Both the position numbers and the translations under genes were made by a program. Shown piece after piece: positions 15,414-31,090 of a DNA stretch of 32,662 nucleotides. The stretch's first letter is position 1, and each line of letters opens with the position of its first letter. The stretch spans positions 1 to 32,662 of the forward strand of contig JACRNJ010000047.1 in the NCBI GenBank assembly GCA_016219285.1. The letters are read 5' to 3'. Source of the stretch: Deltaproteobacteria bacterium (lineage in GTDB: Bacteria > Desulfobacterota > GWC2-55-46 > UBA9637). The notes below the pieces were generated by a model that had not been told where the DNA came from, did not search any database, and saw only the letters and a program-made list of their open reading frames with translations.

Positions 15414-15851
15414 ATGTTAACGGTATTGGCAAATAATTTTAGGCTAAAAAAGGCAGGGCTTGGCCGGGCGCTTGGCGACCTTGAGAAGAATATTATGGAT
15501 ATCCTTTGGTTTAGGGGAGAGGCTACCGGCAAAGAGATTTTTTCAGAGGTCAGGCAGTCAAGGGATATTGCCATTACAACGGTTCTTACGGTTCTTGAGA
15601 GGCTTGCCAAGAAGGGGATTGTAAGGAAGAGTAAGGGTGAAAGTGTTTATGTATATGTGCCGGTTTTTACCAAGACAGAGTTTACAGACATGGTTTCTCA
15701 AGAGGTAATGAAGGGTATTATGGATATATCTGCGAGTTCTGCCGTTGCATCACTGGTGGATATCCTTGCGGATACAGACCCGCATGAATTGGACAGGCTT
15801 TCCAAACTTATAGAAAAAAAGAAGAAGGAAATAAGGCAGAAGGCAGGATAA
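15414..15851 (+). CDS. BlaI/CopY-family transcriptional repressor
   Basis: A 145-residue winged-helix repressor. The DNA-binding domain spans about 20-95: LGDLEKNIMDILWFRGEATG, ITTVLTVLERLAKKGIV and KGESVYVYVPV. The C-terminal helices dimerise. BlaI/MecI respond to antibiotics through an M56 membrane protease; CopY responds to copper. Here an M56 gene begins 4 bases downstream and Cu/Ag efflux genes follow, so the signal is probably metal. No Cys-x-Cys tail like that of CopY is present, so release more likely depends on the protease. The ATG is 7 bases from the -10 box with no ribosome site. Confidence 0.9.
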   Translation: MLTVLANNFRLKKAGLGRALGDLEKNIMDILWFRGEATGKEIFSEVRQSRDIAITTVLTVLERLAKKGIVRKSKGESVYVYVPVFTKTEFTDMVSQEVMKGIMDISASSAVASLVDILADTDPHELDRLSKLIEKKKKEIRQKAG

Positions 15852-15855
15852 TGTA

Positions 15856-16788
15856 ATGATTTTATTTATACCAATCATTGTGGCATTGGCTTTGGCATGG
15901 CTTATCTATGCCTTTCCCCAGATGCTTGTATTTACAGCAGCCATGGCAGAATGGTGCCAGAGTCTCTTGCTTCAGTGCCTTGCATATTTATTGATTGTAA
16001 AAATATCTTTTCTGTGGCTGGGTTTTGGTATGGTGGCTGCTGCTTTTATGTATGCTTTTTTAAAGGCGGCCTTTATGCTAATGCGAACACAGAGGCAGAT
16101 TAAAAATCTTCCGCTGGCTGATTATGGCGATATCATGATTATCAGGGATGATAAGCTGAAAACAGCATTTACCCACGGCTTTTTTAATCCAAAGATCTAT
16201 ATATCCAGAGGCCTTATCAATTCTCTTGATAGTTCTGAATTTCAGGCAGTTTATCTGCATGAACTGCATCATAAAAATCGTAAAGACCCGCTAAGACTTT
16301 TTATCTTATCAATTTTAAGAGACGCATTTTTGTATATTCCAATAAGCAGATTTTTTGCAGAGTTTATTCATAGCAAGGCTGAGGCTGCGGCAGATGATGC
16401 GGTAGTTGCTCAGATGAAAGAGCCCCTAAGCCTTGCAGGCGCACTTTTGAAGATTGCAGGGCTTAACAAAGAAGTCAGAAGTCAGGAGTCAGGAGCCAGA
16501 ATTAATGTCATACTGCAACCTGCATCAATCAACGGATTTGGCTCTACAGAGGCAAGGATAAAAAGGCTTATTCAAGAGACAGAGGAGAGGGTCAACCTTC
16601 CTGCGATAAAGACAAGCATAGTAAGCATCTTGATATCAGGATTTTTGGCCATATCCCTCACCATGCCGTTCTATATATCTTTTCCAGCCATAGGGCAATG
16701 CGATACAAGCCACTGTGCTGTTCATATGAATAAACTGGGAAAAGATTGCCAGAGCCATTGCGAGACCTCTCAGAAGCACAACCACTAA
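15856..16788 (+). CDS. M56 (BlaR1-like) membrane metalloprotease with Cys/His-rich tail
   Basis: A 310-residue membrane protein. N-terminal helices lead to a protease domain with the zinc motif HELHH (His135, Glu136, His139) and a downstream acidic ligand stretch EAAADD. A last helix (about 252-277) is followed by some 30 residues with four Cys (282, 287, 298, 302) and five His, ending KHNH. BlaR1 has a large penicillin-binding sensor at this end; here it is replaced by this short tail, which should face outward and could bind Cu or Ag. The partner is the BlaI repressor upstream. A heptad repeat (16471-16498) encodes EVRSQESGA in a loop after the protease motif. Confidence 0.88.
   Translation: MILFIPIIVALALAWLIYAFPQMLVFTAAMAEWCQSLLLQCLAYLLIVKISFLWLGFGMVAAAFMYAFLKAAFMLMRTQRQIKNLPLADYGDIMIIRDDKLKTAFTHGFFNPKIYISRGLINSLDSSEFQAVYLHELHHKNRKDPLRLFILSILRDAFLYIPISRFFAEFIHSKAEAAADDAVVAQMKEPLSLAGALLKIAGLNKEVRSQESGARINVILQPASINGFGSTEARIKRLIQETEERVNLPAIKTSIVSILISGFLAISLTMPFYISFPAIGQCDTSHCAVHMNKLGKDCQSHCETSQKHNH
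16471..16498 (+). repeat. Heptad run in the M56 gene
   Basis: Four 7-mers in a row: GAAGTCA twice, then GGAGTCA and GGAGCCA. They encode part of a cytoplasmic loop. Four heptads are 28 bases, so simple insertion would shift the frame; the present gene is open. Confidence 0.75.
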
Positions 16789-16806
16789 AAATTTTTTGGT
16801 GATATA

Positions 16807-16823
16807 TTCTACAGCATGTAGAA
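16807..16823 (+). promoter_or_regulatory. Second BlaI-type operator, before the efflux operon
   Basis: TTCTAC-AGCAT-GTAGAA is a perfect inverted repeat with the same half-sites and the same 5-base centre as the operator at 15386-15400. It lies 19 bases before the ATG of the next gene. A TATATT at 16803-16808 overlaps its left edge and may be the -10 box. Confidence 0.75.
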
Positions 16824-16842
16824 AAGAAGGGAAGGGTGAAAA

Positions 16843-17247
16843 ATGAAAATGATAAGAATCAGCGCAGTGTTTGGATTGGCGGTTGTTCTTGTGTTTTTCT
16901 GGATGCAGACAGCCTCTGCACAGATGGAACATAGGAGTGCCGGCGAAGCCAAGACAACAGACGGCATAAAGGCTGTATTAAAGGTTACTCCGTCTCAAAA
17001 CATGGTGGACTTGCTGTTGTATGATTTTAAAACCGGCAAGGCTATTACAGAGGCAAAGGTTGCTGTGAAGGTTAAAGGCCCTGACAACAAGGTTCAGGAA
17101 AAAGAGCTTCTTGGAATGCAAATGGGAGAGGAATTTTCCTTTATGAATAGGCTGGACACAGCAAAGAAAGGCAGCTATAGTTTTGCCATTGCTGTTGGGA
17201 TTGGAAAGAAGAATATCAAATTGAATTTTGTGTATGAGGTGAAGTGA
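16843..17247 (+). CDS. Small secreted protein heading the efflux operon (YtkA/FixH-like fold suspected)
   Basis: A 134-residue protein with a signal peptide (residues 1-26, ending ASA-QMEH). The mature part starts with Met/His (QMEHRS) and has alternating strands (AVLKVTPSQNMVDLLLYDF, AKVAVKVKGPDNKVQEKEL, NIKLNFVYEVK) that suggest an Ig-like domain, as in YtkA or FixH-type proteins found near copper genes. The family was not firmly recognised. It follows the second BlaI-type operator and overlaps the cusC-like start (stop TGA shares the A of ATG), so it is in the efflux operon. It might bind metal or help assemble the pump. Confidence 0.7.
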   Translation: MKMIRISAVFGLAVVLVFFWMQTASAQMEHRSAGEAKTTDGIKAVLKVTPSQNMVDLLLYDFKTGKAITEAKVAVKVKGPDNKVQEKELLGMQMGEEFSFMNRLDTAKKGSYSFAIAVGIGKKNIKLNFVYEVK

Positions 17248-18605
17248 TGCAGAAGCAAGAGTCAAGGGTCAAGGCACAGAGGATAATTTCGATTTTCGGT
17301 TTTCGATTTCAGAATTTAAAATCGCAAATCGTAAATCGTAAATCGCAACTCGTTTTGCTGCTTACTGCCTGCTGCTTAATGGTGGGCATAGCCCACCCTA
17401 CTTTTGCTGCGGATACCGTCTCCCTTTCCTCTCTTATTGACGAGGCTAAAAAGAACAACCCTGAAATTCAGGCCTATCAAAAAAGGATAAAGGCAAAAGA
17501 GCATAGGGCAAAAGTGGAGGGTGTTCTTGATGATCCGCAGTTCAAAGTTGAGGTAATGGATATACCGGGAGATAAACCATTTAATCTTGGAGACTCCATG
17601 CAGACCAGATACACCTTGAGTCAGATGTTTCCATTTCCAGGCAAGTTATCTTTAAAGCAAAAAGCAGCTATGAAAGAGGTTTTAATGGCAGCTTCTGAGG
17701 CCGCAAATAAAGAGCTTGAGGTTGTTTCAATGTTAAAACAGGCATATTTTGATTATGCCTATATTCTTGAATCAATAAAAATAACAAAAGAGGTAAAGGA
17801 AATCCTTTCCAAAATGGCGGATATTGCTCAAATAAGGTACTCAACAAATCAGGCCTCTCAGCAGGATGTTATAAAGGCTCATGTTGAGGTTACCATGCTG
17901 CAAAATGAGCTTATTTATCTTGAGGCTGAAAAGAATATTGTTATGGCAAAGCTCAATTCTATTTTGAGCAGAGATGCTGCATCTCCAATCGGAGAACCTG
18001 AAGATATAAAGACATACAGGATGACACTAACTCAAGGCTTAAGCCTTGAGCTGCAAAAAACAGCAATTGAAAAAAGTCCATCGTTAAGGGCAATGGAATA
18101 TGATATTCAGGCAAGGGATGCAGAAATTGAATTAAATAAAAAGAACTATTACCCGGATTTTATGGTTGGTGTTGCGCCGATACAGAGAAATGGCAGATTT
18201 GACACATATGATTTGATGTTTAGTGTGAATATTCCTGTTTGGTGGGGCAAATATGACAATCAGTTTTCAGAGGCAAGGGTGAATCTCGATGTCTTGAAAT
18301 CGAAACTCAAGGCAGAGCAGAATATAAAAATATTTGAGGTAAAAGAGTCTTTTATAAATGTTGAGGCGGCAAAAAGGGTAAGAGATTTATATGAGACAGG
18401 GCTTCTGCCTCAGGCTGAAATTTCTTTTCAATCCGCAATGGTCAATTATCAGACGAGCAGGGTTGATTTTCTTACAGTCCTTGACAGCCAGAGGATGCTT
18501 AAAAAGACAAGGGTTGAATATATAAAATCCATTGTTGAATACAGGAAGAATATTGCCATGCTTGAAAAAGCGGTGGGAGAAGATTTTGAAAACAGTAAGC
18601 AGTAG
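17247..18605 (+). CDS. CusC-like outer membrane efflux channel (TolC family)
   Basis: A 452-residue outer membrane factor of the metal efflux system. The mature part begins near AADTVSLSSLIDEAKKNNPEI; two long helical halves with outer membrane strands follow, e.g. YTLSQMFPFPGK and MFSVNIPVWW. The start is ATG 17247, overlapping the preceding stop. The first 50 codons are almost wholly repeat-derived: heptads at 17256-17283, a 63-bp dyad at 17287-17349, heptads at 17355-17375 and a GTAG-type palindrome at 17381-17401. They still encode a usable export signal (LVLLLTACCLMVG). LTAC resembles a lipobox, and E. coli CusC is a lipoprotein. The last codons also lie in a heptad run. Confidence 0.9.
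   Translation: MQKQESRVKAQRIISIFGFRFQNLKSQIVNRKSQLVLLLTACCLMVGIAHPTFAADTVSLSSLIDEAKKNNPEIQAYQKRIKAKEHRAKVEGVLDDPQFKVEVMDIPGDKPFNLGDSMQTRYTLSQMFPFPGKLSLKQKAAMKEVLMAASEAANKELEVVSMLKQAYFDYAYILESIKITKEVKEILSKMADIAQIRYSTNQASQQDVIKAHVEVTMLQNELIYLEAEKNIVMAKLNSILSRDAASPIGEPEDIKTYRMTLTQGLSLELQKTAIEKSPSLRAMEYDIQARDAEIELNKKNYYPDFMVGVAPIQRNGRFDTYDLMFSVNIPVWWGKYDNQFSEARVNLDVLKSKLKAEQNIKIFEVKESFINVEAAKRVRDLYETGLLPQAEISFQSAMVNYQTSRVDFLTVLDSQRMLKKTRVEYIKSIVEYRKNIAMLEKAVGEDFENSKQ
17287..17349 (+). repeat. 63-bp dyad of nine heptamers in the cusC-like gene
   Basis: Units TTTCGAT, TTTCGGT, TTTCGAT on the left; TCGCAAA, TCGTAAA (twice) and TCGCAAC on the right, which are near-complements. Nine units give 63 bp, or 21 codons, so the insertion is frame-neutral. 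It encodes the basic region before the hydrophobic core of the export signal. Confidence 0.85.
17381..17401 (-). repeat. GTAG-headed palindrome in the cusC-like signal region
   Basis: On the minus strand it reads GTAGGGTGGGC then a 3-base centre and GCCCACC. It matches the palindrome in cusA (21215-21235) at 19 of 21 bases, in the opposite orientation. It encodes VGIAHPT, the end of the signal peptide. Confidence 0.8.
18031..18050. repeat. Perfect 20-base palindrome in the cusC-like gene
   Basis: CTCAAGGCTT followed directly by its complement AAGCCTTGAG. It is in frame and encodes TQGLSLE. It is similar to the imperfect TCAGGGCTTCAGCCTTGA between rfbD and rfbB. Confidence 0.75.
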
Positions 18606-18626: not shown

Positions 18627-19919
18627 GTGAAAAGATTTTTGATAGGTCTTTTGTTTTTGTTAATCGGTCTTGCCATCGGCGGTGTCGGAACATGGCTGTA
18701 TATTCAGAAGCCAGAAGTCAGAAGCCAGAAGTCAGAAGAGACAGAGAAAGCAAAAAAGGTCTTATTCTACCGCCATCCCATGAACCCCCGGGTTACATCC
18801 CCTGCTCCTCAAAAAGATGAGATGGGTATGGACTATGTGCCTGTCTATGAAGAAGATAGCGCAGAAACCGAGACGCCCGGCGCTGTAAGGATAAGCCCTG
18901 AAAAGATTCAGAAGATTGGCGTTAAATCAGAAGGGGCTAAGATAAGAAACCTGAAGAGGACAATAAGGACAGTTGGCAGGATTGAGCATGATGAATCAAA
19001 GGTCTTTGTGATTAACACGAAAGTAGGCGGTTGGATTGAAAGGCTCTATGCAAACAGGACTGACCTTATGGTTCACCCCGGTGAAAAACTTCTTGAAATC
19101 TACAGCCCAGAGCTGGTTGCAACGCAGGAGGAATATCTTCTGGCGTTTAAAAATATGGGAAAGTTAAAAGACAATCCATATCCTGAAATAAAAAAGGGCG
19201 CCGAATCCCTTTTGCAGGCGGCAAGGCAGAGGCTTAAATACTGGGATATTACCGAAGAACAGGTAAAAAGGCTTGAAGAAAAGGGAGAGATTACCAGGAC
19301 GATGGCTATCTATGCGGATGTGCACGGCATTGTGACTGAAAAGATGGTCAACCAAGGCATGAAAATAGAGGGCGGCGAAATGTTGTTTAAAATTATAGAC
19401 CATTCCGACGTATGGGTATATGGCGAGGTATATGAATATGAACTTCCGTTTATAAAGCTTGGGCAAAAGGCAAGGATTATCCCATCCTATACGCCAGCAG
19501 AGGTTTATACTGCTGCTATAAGCCACATCTATACTCATTTCGGCAGCGCCAGACATGAGGCAGAGGGGATGATGGAGGAGTCAAGGACTGCAAAGATACG
19601 GTTTGACCTGCCCAACCCTGAACATAAATTGAAGCTGGGAATGTATGTGAATGTTGAACTTGCCATAGATGTTGCAGCAAATGCCTTAACTGTTCCTGAT
19701 TCCGCTGTCATAGACACCGGCGAAAGACAGGTGATCTTTGTAGATAAAGGCGACGGCAGATTTGAACCAAGGGAGGTGACGGTCGGCGCACTGGCAGACG
19801 GCTACTATCAGGTTCTGTCCGGCATAAAAGCAGGAGAGAAGGTTGTCACATCAGCAAATTTTCTAATTGATTCCGAATCCAGTTTCAGGGCAGCCATAAG
19901 CGGAATGAAAGGTCACTAA
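18627..19919 (+). CDS. cusB: CusB-like periplasmic adaptor with heavy-metal-binding domain
   Basis: A 430-residue membrane fusion protein linking pump and outer channel. It starts at GTG (AGAGAGGAG upstream). One N-terminal anchor helix is followed by a heavy-metal-binding domain (YRHPMNPRVTSPAPQKDEMG, MDYVPVY), a Cys-free variant with Met and His ligands as in CusB/SilB. The hairpin, lipoyl and barrel domains follow (VGGWIERLYANRTDLMVHPG, VHGIVTEKMVNQGMKIEGG). The last codons overlap the cusA start. Between the anchor and the metal domain, five heptads (18705-18739) encode QKPEVRSQKSEE; this is a linker, so the insertion is probably tolerated. Confidence 0.94.
   Translation: MKRFLIGLLFLLIGLAIGGVGTWLYIQKPEVRSQKSEETEKAKKVLFYRHPMNPRVTSPAPQKDEMGMDYVPVYEEDSAETETPGAVRISPEKIQKIGVKSEGAKIRNLKRTIRTVGRIEHDESKVFVINTKVGGWIERLYANRTDLMVHPGEKLLEIYSPELVATQEEYLLAFKNMGKLKDNPYPEIKKGAESLLQAARQRLKYWDITEEQVKRLEEKGEITRTMAIYADVHGIVTEKMVNQGMKIEGGEMLFKIIDHSDVWVYGEVYEYELPFIKLGQKARIIPSYTPAEVYTAAISHIYTHFGSARHEAEGMMEESRTAKIRFDLPNPEHKLKLGMYVNVELAIDVAANALTVPDSAVIDTGERQVIFVDKGDGRFEPREVTVGALADGYYQVLSGIKAGEKVVTSANFLIDSESSFRAAISGMKGH
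18705..18739 (+). repeat. Heptad run in cusB
   Basis: CAGAAGC and CAGAAGT alternate for four units and CAGAAGA closes the run (35 bases). It encodes the linker between the membrane anchor and the metal-binding domain. Confidence 0.8.
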
Positions 19920-22900
19920 TGCTAAAAAAAATTATAGAACTTTCCATAAACAATAAACTCATCATAATCCTCTTTACCCTTTTTGCGGCCGGCTGGGGTA
20001 TCTGGGCTGTCTATCGCACACCGCTGGATGCAATCCCGGATTTATCAGATGTTCAGGTTATTATTTATACTGACTATCCCGGGCAGGCGCCGCAGGTTGT
20101 TGAAGACCAGATTACCTATCCGCTCACAACCGCCATGCTCTCAGTGCCAAAATCAAAAGTTGTAAGAGGTTTTTCATTCTTTGGCGTATCATTTATCTAT
20201 ATTATCTTTGAGGACGGCACTGATATCTATTGGGCGAGGAGCAGGGTGCTTGAATATCTGAACTTTGCATCGGGAAAACTTCCCAAAGGTGTAACGCCGT
20301 CTCTTGGCCCTGACGCAACCGGCGTTGGATGGGTCTTTCAATATTCTATAGAAGGCAAAGGTTATAGTCTTGCCGAACTCAGAAGTATTCAGGATTGGTA
20401 TGTCCGTTATCAGCTTACCAAGGTTCCGGGTGTTTCAGAGGTTGCATCCATTGGCGGCTTTGTAAAACAGTATCAGGTGAATATAGACCCCAACAGGCTT
20501 CTCACCCATAACATTGCGCTCAGGGATGTGGTTGACTCAATTAAGATGGGCAATATGGATGTGGGCGGCAGGATTGTGGAATTAACCGAACGGGAGTATA
20601 TGGTCAGGGGTCTTGGCTATATCAAGAATATCCCTGATATAGAAAATATAGTTTTAAAGGTTGACAGAAGCGGGACGCCGATAAGGATAAAGGATGTGGC
20701 AAGGGTTGAACTTGGGCCCGATGAAAGACGTGGTATTGTAGAAAGAGACGGCGAGGGTGAAGTAGTGGGCGGCATTGTTGTGATGCGGTTTGGGCAGAAT
20801 GCCCTTAAAGTCATTGATGATGTAAAGAAAAAGATTGAAGAACTCAAACCAGGCCTTCCTCCGGGTGTTCAAATCATTACAACTTATGACAGAAGCCACT
20901 TAATCCATCGGGCAATTGAAACTCTAAAGGAAAAACTTATAGAAGAATCCATTGTTGTTTCTCTGGTGTGTATTATCTTCCTTCTGCATTTCAGGTCTGC
21001 CCTTGTTGCGATCCTCATGCTTCCTGTAAGCATCCTCATATCATTTATAGTTATGTATTACCTTAAAATCAACGCAAATATCATGAGCCTCGGCGGCATT
21101 GCCATTGCTGTTGGCGCTATGATAGATGGCGCAATTGTGATGATAGAAAATGCGCACAAGCATTTGGAAAGGGCTCAAGGGGTCGAGGGGGCAAGGGGTC
21201 AAGGAAAACAGGATGTAGGGTGGGCTGCGCCCACCGATAGATGGCAGATTATCGCTGATGCTGCAAAAGAGGTCGGCCCTCCGCTCTTCTTTTCCCTTCT
21301 TATCATTACAGTTTCATTTATACCTGTGTTTACGCTTGAGGCGCAGGAGGGCCGTTTGTTCAAGCCGCTAGCATTTACAAAGACATTTGCAATGGCTGCA
21401 TCAGCGCTTTTATCCATAACCCTGGCGCCTGTGCTCATGGGGTTTTTTATAAGAGGCCGTATTATGCCTGAAAAGAAAAATCCAATAACAAGGTTTTTAA
21501 TCTGGATATACAAGCCAATTATAAACCTTGTGCTCAAGGCAAAGCTCATTACCATTTTTATTGCAATTGCTGTGCTTATTGCAACCATATATCCTTTTAA
21601 AAAACTCGGCAGCGAGTTCATGCCAACGCTTTATGAAGGTTCTCTCATGTTCATGACTGCGACGCTTCCGGGTGTATCAAGCACAAAAATAAACGAAATC
21701 CTGCAGACAACAGACAGGATTATAAAATCATTTCCAGAGGTGGAGCAGGTCTTCGGAAAGGTCGGCCGCGCCCAGACAGCAACAGACCCTGCGCCATTAG
21801 AGATGTTTGAGACAACTATAAATTTAAAACCTGAGAGCGAGTGGCGGTCCGGCATGACTGTAGATAAACTTGTTTCTGAGATGAGCAAGGCATTAGAAAT
21901 GCCGGGCATCCCCATCCAGTGGTCAATGCCCATAAAAAACAGGGTTGATATGCTGGCAACAGGCATACGCACGTCTGTCGGTGTAAAGGTTTTTGGAAAG
22001 GATTTAAAGACCATTGAACAACTGGCAGTTGATATTGAAGCAGCATTAAAAATGGTTCCCGGCACAGCCAGCGCTTATGCAGAGAGGATTATCGGCGGAT
22101 ATTATGTTGACGTAAAGATAAAACGCGATGAGGCAGCAAGATATGGACTCAAGGTTGAAGACATCCAGCAGGTTATTATGTCAGCCATCGGAGGGGAAAA
22201 TATAACAACAACAGTGGAAGGCCTGGAGAGATACCCGATAAACGTCAGATACAAAAGAGAGCTTCGGGATAATGTTGATAAGATTGGAAGGGTGCTTATT
22301 CCAACAATGATGAATCAACATATACCTTTATCTCAGGTGGCCGACATAAAACTCAGCAAAGGTGTGGCAGGGATAAAAACAGAAAATGCCCTTTTAAACA
22401 CATGGGTATTTGTGGATGTGCGTGGCAGAGACATTGGCAGCTATGTTCAAGACGCAAAAAAGGCTGTGCTGGAGAATGTCAAGTTTCCTCCTGGCTATTA
22501 TGTTGCATGGAGCGGACAGTATGAATATATGGAAAGGGCGTATGCAAAATTAAAGGTTATTGTGCCGCTAACCCTCGCTATAATATTTTTACTGCTCTAT
22601 TTTAACTTTGGCAATATCACAGAAAGTTTGATTGTCATGCTTTCTTTGCCCTTCTCTCTGGTCGGCGGTATTTGGCTTATGTATATTTTAGGCTATAATA
22701 TGAGTGTGGCTGTGGGCGTCGGGTTTATTGCCCTTGCCGGAGTTGCCGCTGAGACAGGAGTTATAATGCTTATCTATCTGGATAGCGCGTATCAAGAGGC
22801 AAGAGGCAAGAGGCAAGAGGCAAGAGAAGAAATGAGCAAAAAGGATTTATATGATGCGGTGATTGAAGGCGCTGTTGAAAGAGTTAGACCAAAGATGATG

Positions 22901-23140: not shown

Positions 23141-23162
23141 TAAAAGAAAGGAGGTGATACCG

Positions 23163-23531
23163 ATGGGATTTTCAAGAATAGTTATTGCAGTTTTTTTGGC
23201 AGTTTCGCTTATGGCAATGCCTGTATTTGCTGATGAAAAGCACGGTGCAACAAGCGGAGGCATGATGGGCGAACATGGCATGATGGGTGAGGGGATGATG
23301 GGCAGCAAGATGATGGGAGAGCATCACAAGATGATGCAGGATACGATGGGCATGATGAAGGAGATGATGGAGATGATGAAAAATATGTTTCCTGCGCCAG
23401 GCGATGTACAGAAGAAAAGGCTTGACGAAATGATGATGAAGATGGATGGGATGATGAAGATGCACGATGAGATGTTTAAAAAGAAGGAAGAGATGAAGAA
23501 GAAAAAGATGGAAGAAAAGAAGGGGATGTAA
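23163..23531 (+). CDS. Met/His-rich secreted metal-binding protein, copy 1
   Basis: A 122-residue protein with a signal peptide (ending MPVFA-DEKHG). The mature part is built of GMMGEHGMMGE-type units and a long helix with MMKEMMEMMKNM and a Lys/Glu-rich end (KKKEEMKKKK). Such Met/His clusters bind Cu(I) or Ag(I), as in PcoE/SilE-type periplasmic buffers, although no overall family was recognised. The ribosome site AAAGGAGGTGATA is an almost complete match to the 16S rRNA 3' end, predicting high expression. A paralogue with the same ribosome site and trailing DNA lies at 30731-31090. Confidence 0.85.
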   Translation: MGFSRIVIAVFLAVSLMAMPVFADEKHGATSGGMMGEHGMMGEGMMGSKMMGEHHKMMQDTMGMMKEMMEMMKNMFPAPGDVQKKRLDEMMMKMDGMMKMHDEMFKKKEEMKKKKMEEKKGM

Positions 23532-30552: not shown

Positions 30553-30730
30553 AAGATAAATGGGATGGCGTAATCTTTGTTTTCGGTGTAGAATGTGCCG
30601 TGAAGATAAGGAAAGGGTAATTGGGCCATGGCATTGCTTCCATGACCTGAGAAGTAACGTTGCCCTTTACTGATAACTAAAACCGTTGGAGATAAGCTTT
30701 AATGCTACCACAAGAAAGGAGGTGATACAG
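30553..30730. other. Gap before second Met-rich gene
   Basis: No gene seen. AAAGGG near 30613 and CCCTTT near 30663 could pair around a loop with further short pairings. A single GTAGAA half-site at about 30590 has no partner, so a third BlaI-type operator is not supported. Confidence 0.4.
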
Positions 30731-31090
30731 GTGAGTATTATAAAAATGGTTGTTTCAGCGTTTGTTTTGGTTTCGCTTGTTACAGTCCCTGCCATGGCAG
30801 ATGAGAAGAAAGGGGAGAAGAACCCATGCGGTATGATGGGCGAACATGGCATGATGGGCGGCAAAATGATGGAGATGAAAGAGCATCATAATATGATGCA
30901 GGATACCATGGGCATGATGAAGGAGATGATGGGGATATTAAAAGGTATGAATCATACTCCAAGTGATGCGCAGAAGAAAAGACTTGATGAGATGATGAAG
31001 AAGATGGACGACATGGTGAAGATGCACGAAGATATGATGAAGAAAAAGGAAGAGATGATGAAGAAAAAGATGGAAAAGAAGGGGATGTAA
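30731..31090 (+). CDS. Met/His-rich secreted metal-binding protein, copy 2
   Basis: A 119-residue protein starting at GTG 30731, right after the same AAAGGAGGTGATA ribosome site as copy 1; the track start at 30686 lies upstream of that site. Signal peptide ends VTVPAMA-DEKKG. The mature part has GMMGEHGMMGGKMM, EHHNMMQDTMGMMKEMMG and a Lys/Met-rich helix. It adds one Cys (NPCGMMG) not present in copy 1. Likely a periplasmic Cu(I)/Ag(I) buffer. A strong terminator follows. Confidence 0.85.
   Translation: MSIIKMVVSAFVLVSLVTVPAMADEKKGEKNPCGMMGEHGMMGGKMMEMKEHHNMMQDTMGMMKEMMGILKGMNHTPSDAQKKRLDEMMKKMDDMVKMHEDMMKKKEEMMKKKMEKKGM

Follow-up and report, generated by a model that had tools for sequence, protein, structure and literature searches.

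Heptanucleotide arrays and a REP palindrome as the probable source of a CusC-like signal peptide, and of others, in one bacterial lineage

Signal peptides are known to vary, usually by slow substitution. In the opa genes of Neisseria, a repeat of CTCTT encodes the hydrophobic core of the leader. The copy number of this leader-coding repeat switches expression (PMC3960869). The opa genes are the nearest precedent for the case described here, as they carry a short tandem repeat with a length not divisible by three in signal peptide-coding DNA (PMC3960869); they represent, however, one surface-antigen family with one unit and phase variation by copy number, whereas in the lineage considered here many housekeeping exported proteins and many units are involved, units are swapped between species and no sign of copy-number switching was seen. 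Tandem 7-mers which are over-represented in a genome were reported from cyanobacteria, Beggiatoaceae (TAACTGA), Xanthomonas and Nostoc (GGGAATC); those reports stress intergenic sites, while the arrays of the present lineage are densest in signal peptide DNA and belong to many unit families (PMC4679880, PMC4692102). GTAG-tagged REPs, RAYT transposases and occasional REPs inside ORFs are also known already (PMC3733652). Selfish or tandem DNA turned into a part of proteins is exemplified by the Rickettsia palindromic elements and by the tandem repeats of Borgs. Borg repeat proteins are likewise enriched in signal peptide-bearing proteins (PMC9879509), but their in-gene units have lengths divisible by three and give rise to disordered regions, whereas here 7-base units make the signal peptide itself. 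Turnover of signal peptides with retention of function is known from animal GDF/BMP genes (PMC2717928). Among the open papers searched, none reported a lineage with housekeeping signal peptides repeatedly rebuilt from repeat DNA.

The window, i.e., the whole stretch of 32,662 nucleotides which was analysed, corresponds to contig C84 in a draft genome of 2.28 Mb; among its named relatives, the nearest are MAGs from groundwater or aquifers which carry the label Deltaproteobacteria. One of its genes (Table 1) encodes a protein of 452 amino acids with a match to PF02321 (7.2e-42), and is followed by a CusB-like (PF16576) and a CusA-like gene (PF00873); by this combination of an OEP domain with CusB- and CusA-like genes in an efflux operon it meets the criterion for an OEP/CusC efflux channel. 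Its ATG start codon, with GTG at 17244 as an alternative, overlaps the stop codon of the upstream gene. Ahead of the efflux genes, region 15414-17247 holds a pair of BlaI-type repressor (PF03965) and M56 peptidase, and a 134-aa protein without Pfam match. Two small Met/His-rich proteins (MMGEHGMMG...) with N-terminal hydrophobic segments are encoded near the operon (23154-23531 and 30686-31090); these are possible metal binders.

Table 1. Positions of the CusC-like gene, its signal peptide blocks and further repeats in the window
Feature	Position	Strand	Remark
CusC-like (OEP) gene	17247..18605	+	452 aa
Start context TGAAGTGATG after GAGG	17240..17249	+	ATG at 17247
Heptad array CAAGAGTCAAGGGTCAAGG, AGTCAAG-type	17256..17274	+	encodes polar n-terminal residues
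Imperfect heptad dyad, ~62 bp	17287..17348	+	encodes FGFRF..NLKSQIVNRKSQ, predicted basic n-region
TGCTGCTTACTGCC-type hydrophobic heptads	17356..17381	+	predicted h-region LLLTACCL
GTAG-tagged REP palindrome GGTGGGCATAGCCCACC (17381-17397), then CTAC	17381..17400	-	encodes predicted c-region MVGIAHPT
Predicted cleavage zone TFA/AD and start of conserved mature part (TVSLSSLIDEAKKNNPEI)	17402..17416	+	
CusB heptad array, AGAAGCC-type	18705..18738	+	just after membrane anchor (KPEVRSQKSEE)
Second REP palindrome copy	21219..21235		within CusA coding region
CAAGAGG heptad array (QEARGKRQEARE)	22793..22826	+	within CusA

The 168 nt which separate the start codon from the mature protein were found to be filled with heptads, a heptad dyad, hydrophobic repeats and a palindrome, as had been stated in a preliminary description of this DNA, which considered the export signal to be almost wholly repeat DNA. 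The dyad, given there as 63 bp, is present, but imperfect and rather of about 62 bp; 22 of the 29 positions of its arms (17287-17315, TTTCGAT; 17320-17348, AAATCGY) are complementary, and the dyad itself consists of heptad arrays (TTTCGAT, 17287-17309; AAATCGY, 17319-17352). What had been listed as a second block of heptads also exists, but in this gene it is a degenerate two-copy repeat of 14 nt (TGCTGCTTACTG / TGCTGCTTAATG, two heptads per unit) and the weakest block when taken alone; in sister copies this third heptad block, as it is when the dyad is counted, is clean. The 76 nt of array observed in the CusC segment were never reached in 2000 codon-order shuffles, and only four of these contained any array. 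Besides the 181-bp segment itself, the genome contains 66 partial matches to it, and the dyad occurs dispersed in the genome. The predicted parts of the peptide, NRKSQ (basic), LVLLLTACCLMVGIA (hydrophobic) and PTFA before AD, meet the sequence criteria for a Sec signal peptide; a crude rule flags LTAC as a lipobox and alternative site, but the orthologues favour type I cleavage at xFA.

The end of the signal had been ascribed to a GTAG palindrome, and this could be confirmed: the core is present in 45 exact genomic copies, some of them paired, versus none for the reversed pattern, and CTAC at 17397-17400 is GTAG on the minus strand. Two copies (C71:24060 and 24656) flank a Y1_Tnp/RAYT gene (C71:24235-24600). 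The CusC palindrome, GTAG-ended, of high copy number and associated with a RAYT (Y1_Tnp), thus meets the criteria for GTAG REPs, which are palindromes of 20-40 bp. It resembles the described REP/RAYT systems in being GTAG-tagged, multi-copy, sometimes paired and Y1_Tnp-flanking, but differs in that it supplies the c-region of a signal peptide, and the local heptads and dyads are not REPs. The arrangement at G000:C71:24060-24672, a Y1_Tnp gene between two GGTGGGCNNNGCCCACC palindromes, is a REPtron-like unit. The REP-encoded VGIAHPT is common to the OEP orthologues of G005 and G006 (L024, L023) and missing in G001-G003 of the own genus; thus, either the REP was inserted long ago, or the gene passed from one lineage to another.

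Start-to-mature DNA was compared among relatives for five exported families (OEP, TolB, LolA, LptA, CcmH), which were picked because the present genome carries arrays there. Arrays were found in 30 of 35 signal peptides from the own family (39% of signal peptide nucleotides), in 6 of 11 from the sister family (27%) and in 1 of 68 from other families of the class (0.3%). For own and sister family together (f1 and f2, i.e., same family and same order) the count was 36/46, and without the own genome, which had determined the choice of genes, 31/41 (p=2e-17). Mature DNA just downstream contained 0-0.5% array. The LptA signal peptides contain AAGAGGC in the own genome, TTTCGAT among others in G004, AGGCGAT in G002, GGTTATA in G001, GGCTATG in G005 and G006, GGCTCAT in G003 and CAAGGGT in G010, and the mature N-terminus is conserved despite the change of unit. 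OEP orthologues of G002, G003, G006 and G010 have GGTGAAGTGATG or a close variant as start context; the OEP signal peptides end with xFA/xTA before (A/D/Q/S)(D/E), and the mature N-terminus is common. The arrays therefore sit between two fixed points. Distant families possess ordinary, repeat-free signal peptides, e.g., MRTIIGIFSILLILIFSSLASLPAFSEE. The preliminary description had suggested that a secretion signal was replaced by repeats, which would have been refuted by N-terminal residues shared with orthologues or by a conserved signal elsewhere. Neither was found in the orthologue alignment: N-terminal residues differ, and near orthologues mostly contain different mixes of repeats. Since repeats differ while start context and mature N-terminus are kept, the suggestion is supported, and, as far as sequence comparison can tell, replacement by repeats appears to extend far beyond the single CusC gene.

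Period-7 arrays were counted in 712 kb (31%) of the own genome, with genes called by a simple dicodon caller and signal peptides by a home-made rule. There were 27 arrays per 100 kb, compared to 9.5 in G006 (another genus of the own family) and none in 400 kb of G027 (another family of the class). Periods other than 7 yielded nothing comparable in the own genome, except for multiples of 7. A low-complexity artefact of Leu-rich codons was ruled out by codon-order shuffling and by the other periods. Enrichment in signal peptide DNA was clear: density per 100 kb was 253 there, 86 in intergenic DNA (a threefold difference, p=1e-6), 6.6 in the first 60 codons of non-signal-peptide genes and 12 in the remainder of these genes; coverage was about 9-9.8% in signal peptide DNA, 2.8% in intergenic DNA and 0.03% in codon-order-shuffled signal peptide DNA. 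The arrays average about 31-36 nt and are imperfect (lag-7 identity about 0.92). Among 23 genes with an N-terminal array, 20 encode envelope proteins, 18 of which were recognized by the Pfam family of the mature part; the families are LptA, Cu-oxidase, thioredoxin-like, BamA (Omp85, five POTRA), OEP, GNA1162-like lipoprotein, FlgA, SCO1, LolA, Vgb, CcmH, PQQ lipoprotein, PilW and CusB. TolB is a further case, from outside the sampled stretches. Arrays can themselves create signal peptide calls, but the mature-domain families and the orthologues argue against circularity. The heptad dyad of the CusC segment is also carried, in frame, by the cytosolic proteins PheT, Ddl, CobB-like and CbiD (L019, L018, L009, L008), located in PheT between the tRNA-binding and B3/4 domains and in the CobB/CobQ-like protein between CbiA and GATase_3; hence insertion appears to be general, with retention depending on chemistry. 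The heptad pattern TACTGCY, without regard to location in signal peptides, is distributed patchily over 34 of 297 genomes of the phylum, and tandem TACTGCY heptads occur in scattered other families (G106, G141, G069, G286, G230, G321); thus, similar heptads exist outside the order.

Comparison with the sister species G004 comprised 21 orthologous pairs with a signal peptide in at least one species. Arrays were present in G004 in all 11 pairs which are array-bearing in the own genome, and in none of the 10 others (p = 1/352,716). Replacement specific to the species was evident: signal peptide identity in the 11 array pairs was at most 0.47 in seven, near 0.6 in two and 0.88-0.94 in two, with mature identities of 76-96% in the former seven. 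In several of the array signal peptides, the initial codons and the region around the cleavage site are retained. The arrays of CcmH and of the PQQ lipoprotein, which are the two conserved ones, are of equal length in both species. From this comparison it follows that the array slot is inherited and its content replaced.

An alignment (A2) of 11 signal peptides at the DNA level, nine from the own genome and two from G004, revealed a common composite cassette of ~105 nt, which consists of the dyad, the junction AAATCxCAAATCxTTTTxCTGCTT and hydrophobic heptads, with divergence at the mature parts. Carriers include CusC, a TPR lipoprotein, TolB, a virginiamycin-lyase-like protein, thioredoxin, an M23 peptidase, CcmH and the LptA of G004; judged by this alignment, the cassette is common to about ten unrelated exported proteins. 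A deletion of exactly 21 nt (three heptads) was seen in one copy, and a one-base deletion together with a one-base insertion, which offset each other, in another. A profile search gave matches in 11/11 genomes of f1 and f2 and in 0/15 others. It could be speculated, although we would not quite expect it, that the composite repeat acts as a portable signal peptide cassette made up of outer heptads, dyad and hydrophobic heptads, which is indifferent to frame and is copied from one gene into other, unrelated ones as a finished export tag. The export signals of the whole order, including those of BamA, LptA, LolA and TolB, would then be exchangeable modules subject to shuffling.

As 7 leaves a remainder of 1 upon division by 3, a tandem heptad spells one cyclic heptapeptide whichever of the three frames is read. 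Purine-rich heptads yield basic or polar peptides (GCAAGAG, ARGKRQE; AAATCGC, KSQIANR) and pyrimidine-rich ones hydrophobic peptides (CTCTTGC, LLPLASC; TTACTGC, LLLTAYC), so that a basic heptad followed by a hydrophobic one makes an n-region and an h-region. In the array signal peptides the purine content was 63% in the n-region and 29% in the h-region. Hydrophobic heptads were present in 19/32 signal peptide arrays versus 9/105 intergenic arrays, and their sense to antisense ratio was 13:6 in signal peptides versus 1:14 in the bodies of non-signal-peptide genes (p=4e-4); such a bias in type and orientation is as expected if selection retains the chemistry of n- and h-regions. Neighbouring arrays were inverted in 12/45 cases, versus 11% of random pairs. 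Gene-specific hairpin pairing of n- and h-arms was considered and found to be weak only (self 11.0, cross-gene 9.5, p=0.06; controls 6.9). Signal peptides need chemistry rather than sequence, and repeat inserts would therefore be kept. Inserts may overwrite signal peptide DNA, while first codons and cleavage site tend to stay; modules would be copied or recombined out of a pool in the genome, with local slippage in addition. Recombination between dispersed copies, RAYT-like mobilisation and slippage are the candidate routes, all of which are inferred. The earlier view that the repeat sequence merely happens to work holds in part: hydrophobic-heptad enrichment and orientation bias are not random, and export function is itself inferred, no expression or secretion data being at hand. 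We consider it likely that the CusC-like protein possesses a Sec signal peptide derived almost wholly from dispersed repeat modules, and that many other signal peptides of this lineage, with heptad arrays, dyads of heptads and REP palindromes repeatedly overwriting their DNA, have arisen in this way.

Heptads could, on the other hand, arise or insert everywhere by slippage and simply survive in unconstrained signal peptides, without selection as modules and without copying. Arrays are frequent between genes and also in linkers between domains of cytosolic enzymes, and their presence inside cytosolic proteins implies that tolerance alone explains part of the pattern; the turnover in animals (PMC2717928) is compatible with this, and among the long SSRs of many bacteria heptads form the most frequent class, for which polymerase slippage was proposed (PMC4679880, PMC4692102). 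As a full explanation it appears unlikely, although it deserves serious consideration, in view of the threefold density over intergenic DNA, the preponderance of hydrophobic heptads in signal peptides, the cassette common to unrelated genes and the persistence of array-bearing genes in the sister species. Contingency loci, in which out-of-frame heptads switch exported proteins on and off by slipped-strand mispairing like CTCTT in opa, would agree with a unit not divisible by three within the leader-coding region (PMC3960869). This appears improbable for short, imperfect arrays in the housekeeping genes BamA, LptA, LolA and TolB, particularly as species differ in the unit itself and not in how often one unit is repeated, and as array length is unchanged in the two conserved cases.

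Two further explanations were weighed. The dyad could act as a regulatory hairpin at the beginning of the mRNA, with the peptide being secondary; the segment folds at -53.5 kcal/mol versus -45.2 for shuffles, but the z-score (-2.1) is modest, an Rfam search gave no match, OEP orthologues such as L022 and L027 lack the dyad, and the same dyad is found within coding regions of unrelated enzymes, which leaves little room for such an element. Most improbable of all appears an artefact of start assignment, i.e., a true start further downstream and repeats in 5' untranslated or intergenic DNA which are read through by chance. Intergenic DNA does often carry heptads, and for at least one ORF of the sample (gene 6 of L064) the start appears to be misplaced; yet the Shine-Dalgarno-like GAGG and the start context are kept across OEP orthologues with differing repeats, a start at ATG 17379 would reduce the signal to MVGIAHPTFA, which lacks both charge and h-region, and in most array genes the only hydrophobic stretch is the repeat-encoded one.

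If the preferred reading, i.e., signal peptides made from repeat modules, is followed, N-termini in such genomes are easily misannotated, and caution is advisable. Both in this uncultivated bacterium and among its close relatives, an essential export label, also of usually essential proteins, seems to have been rewritten repeatedly from repeat DNA. The lineage provides dozens of natural signal peptide replacements in orthologous housekeeping proteins, with the origin of the substitute still readable in the DNA. With it, one can test directly how small the information content of an export signal may be, and in what way non-coding repeats turn into essential parts of proteins.
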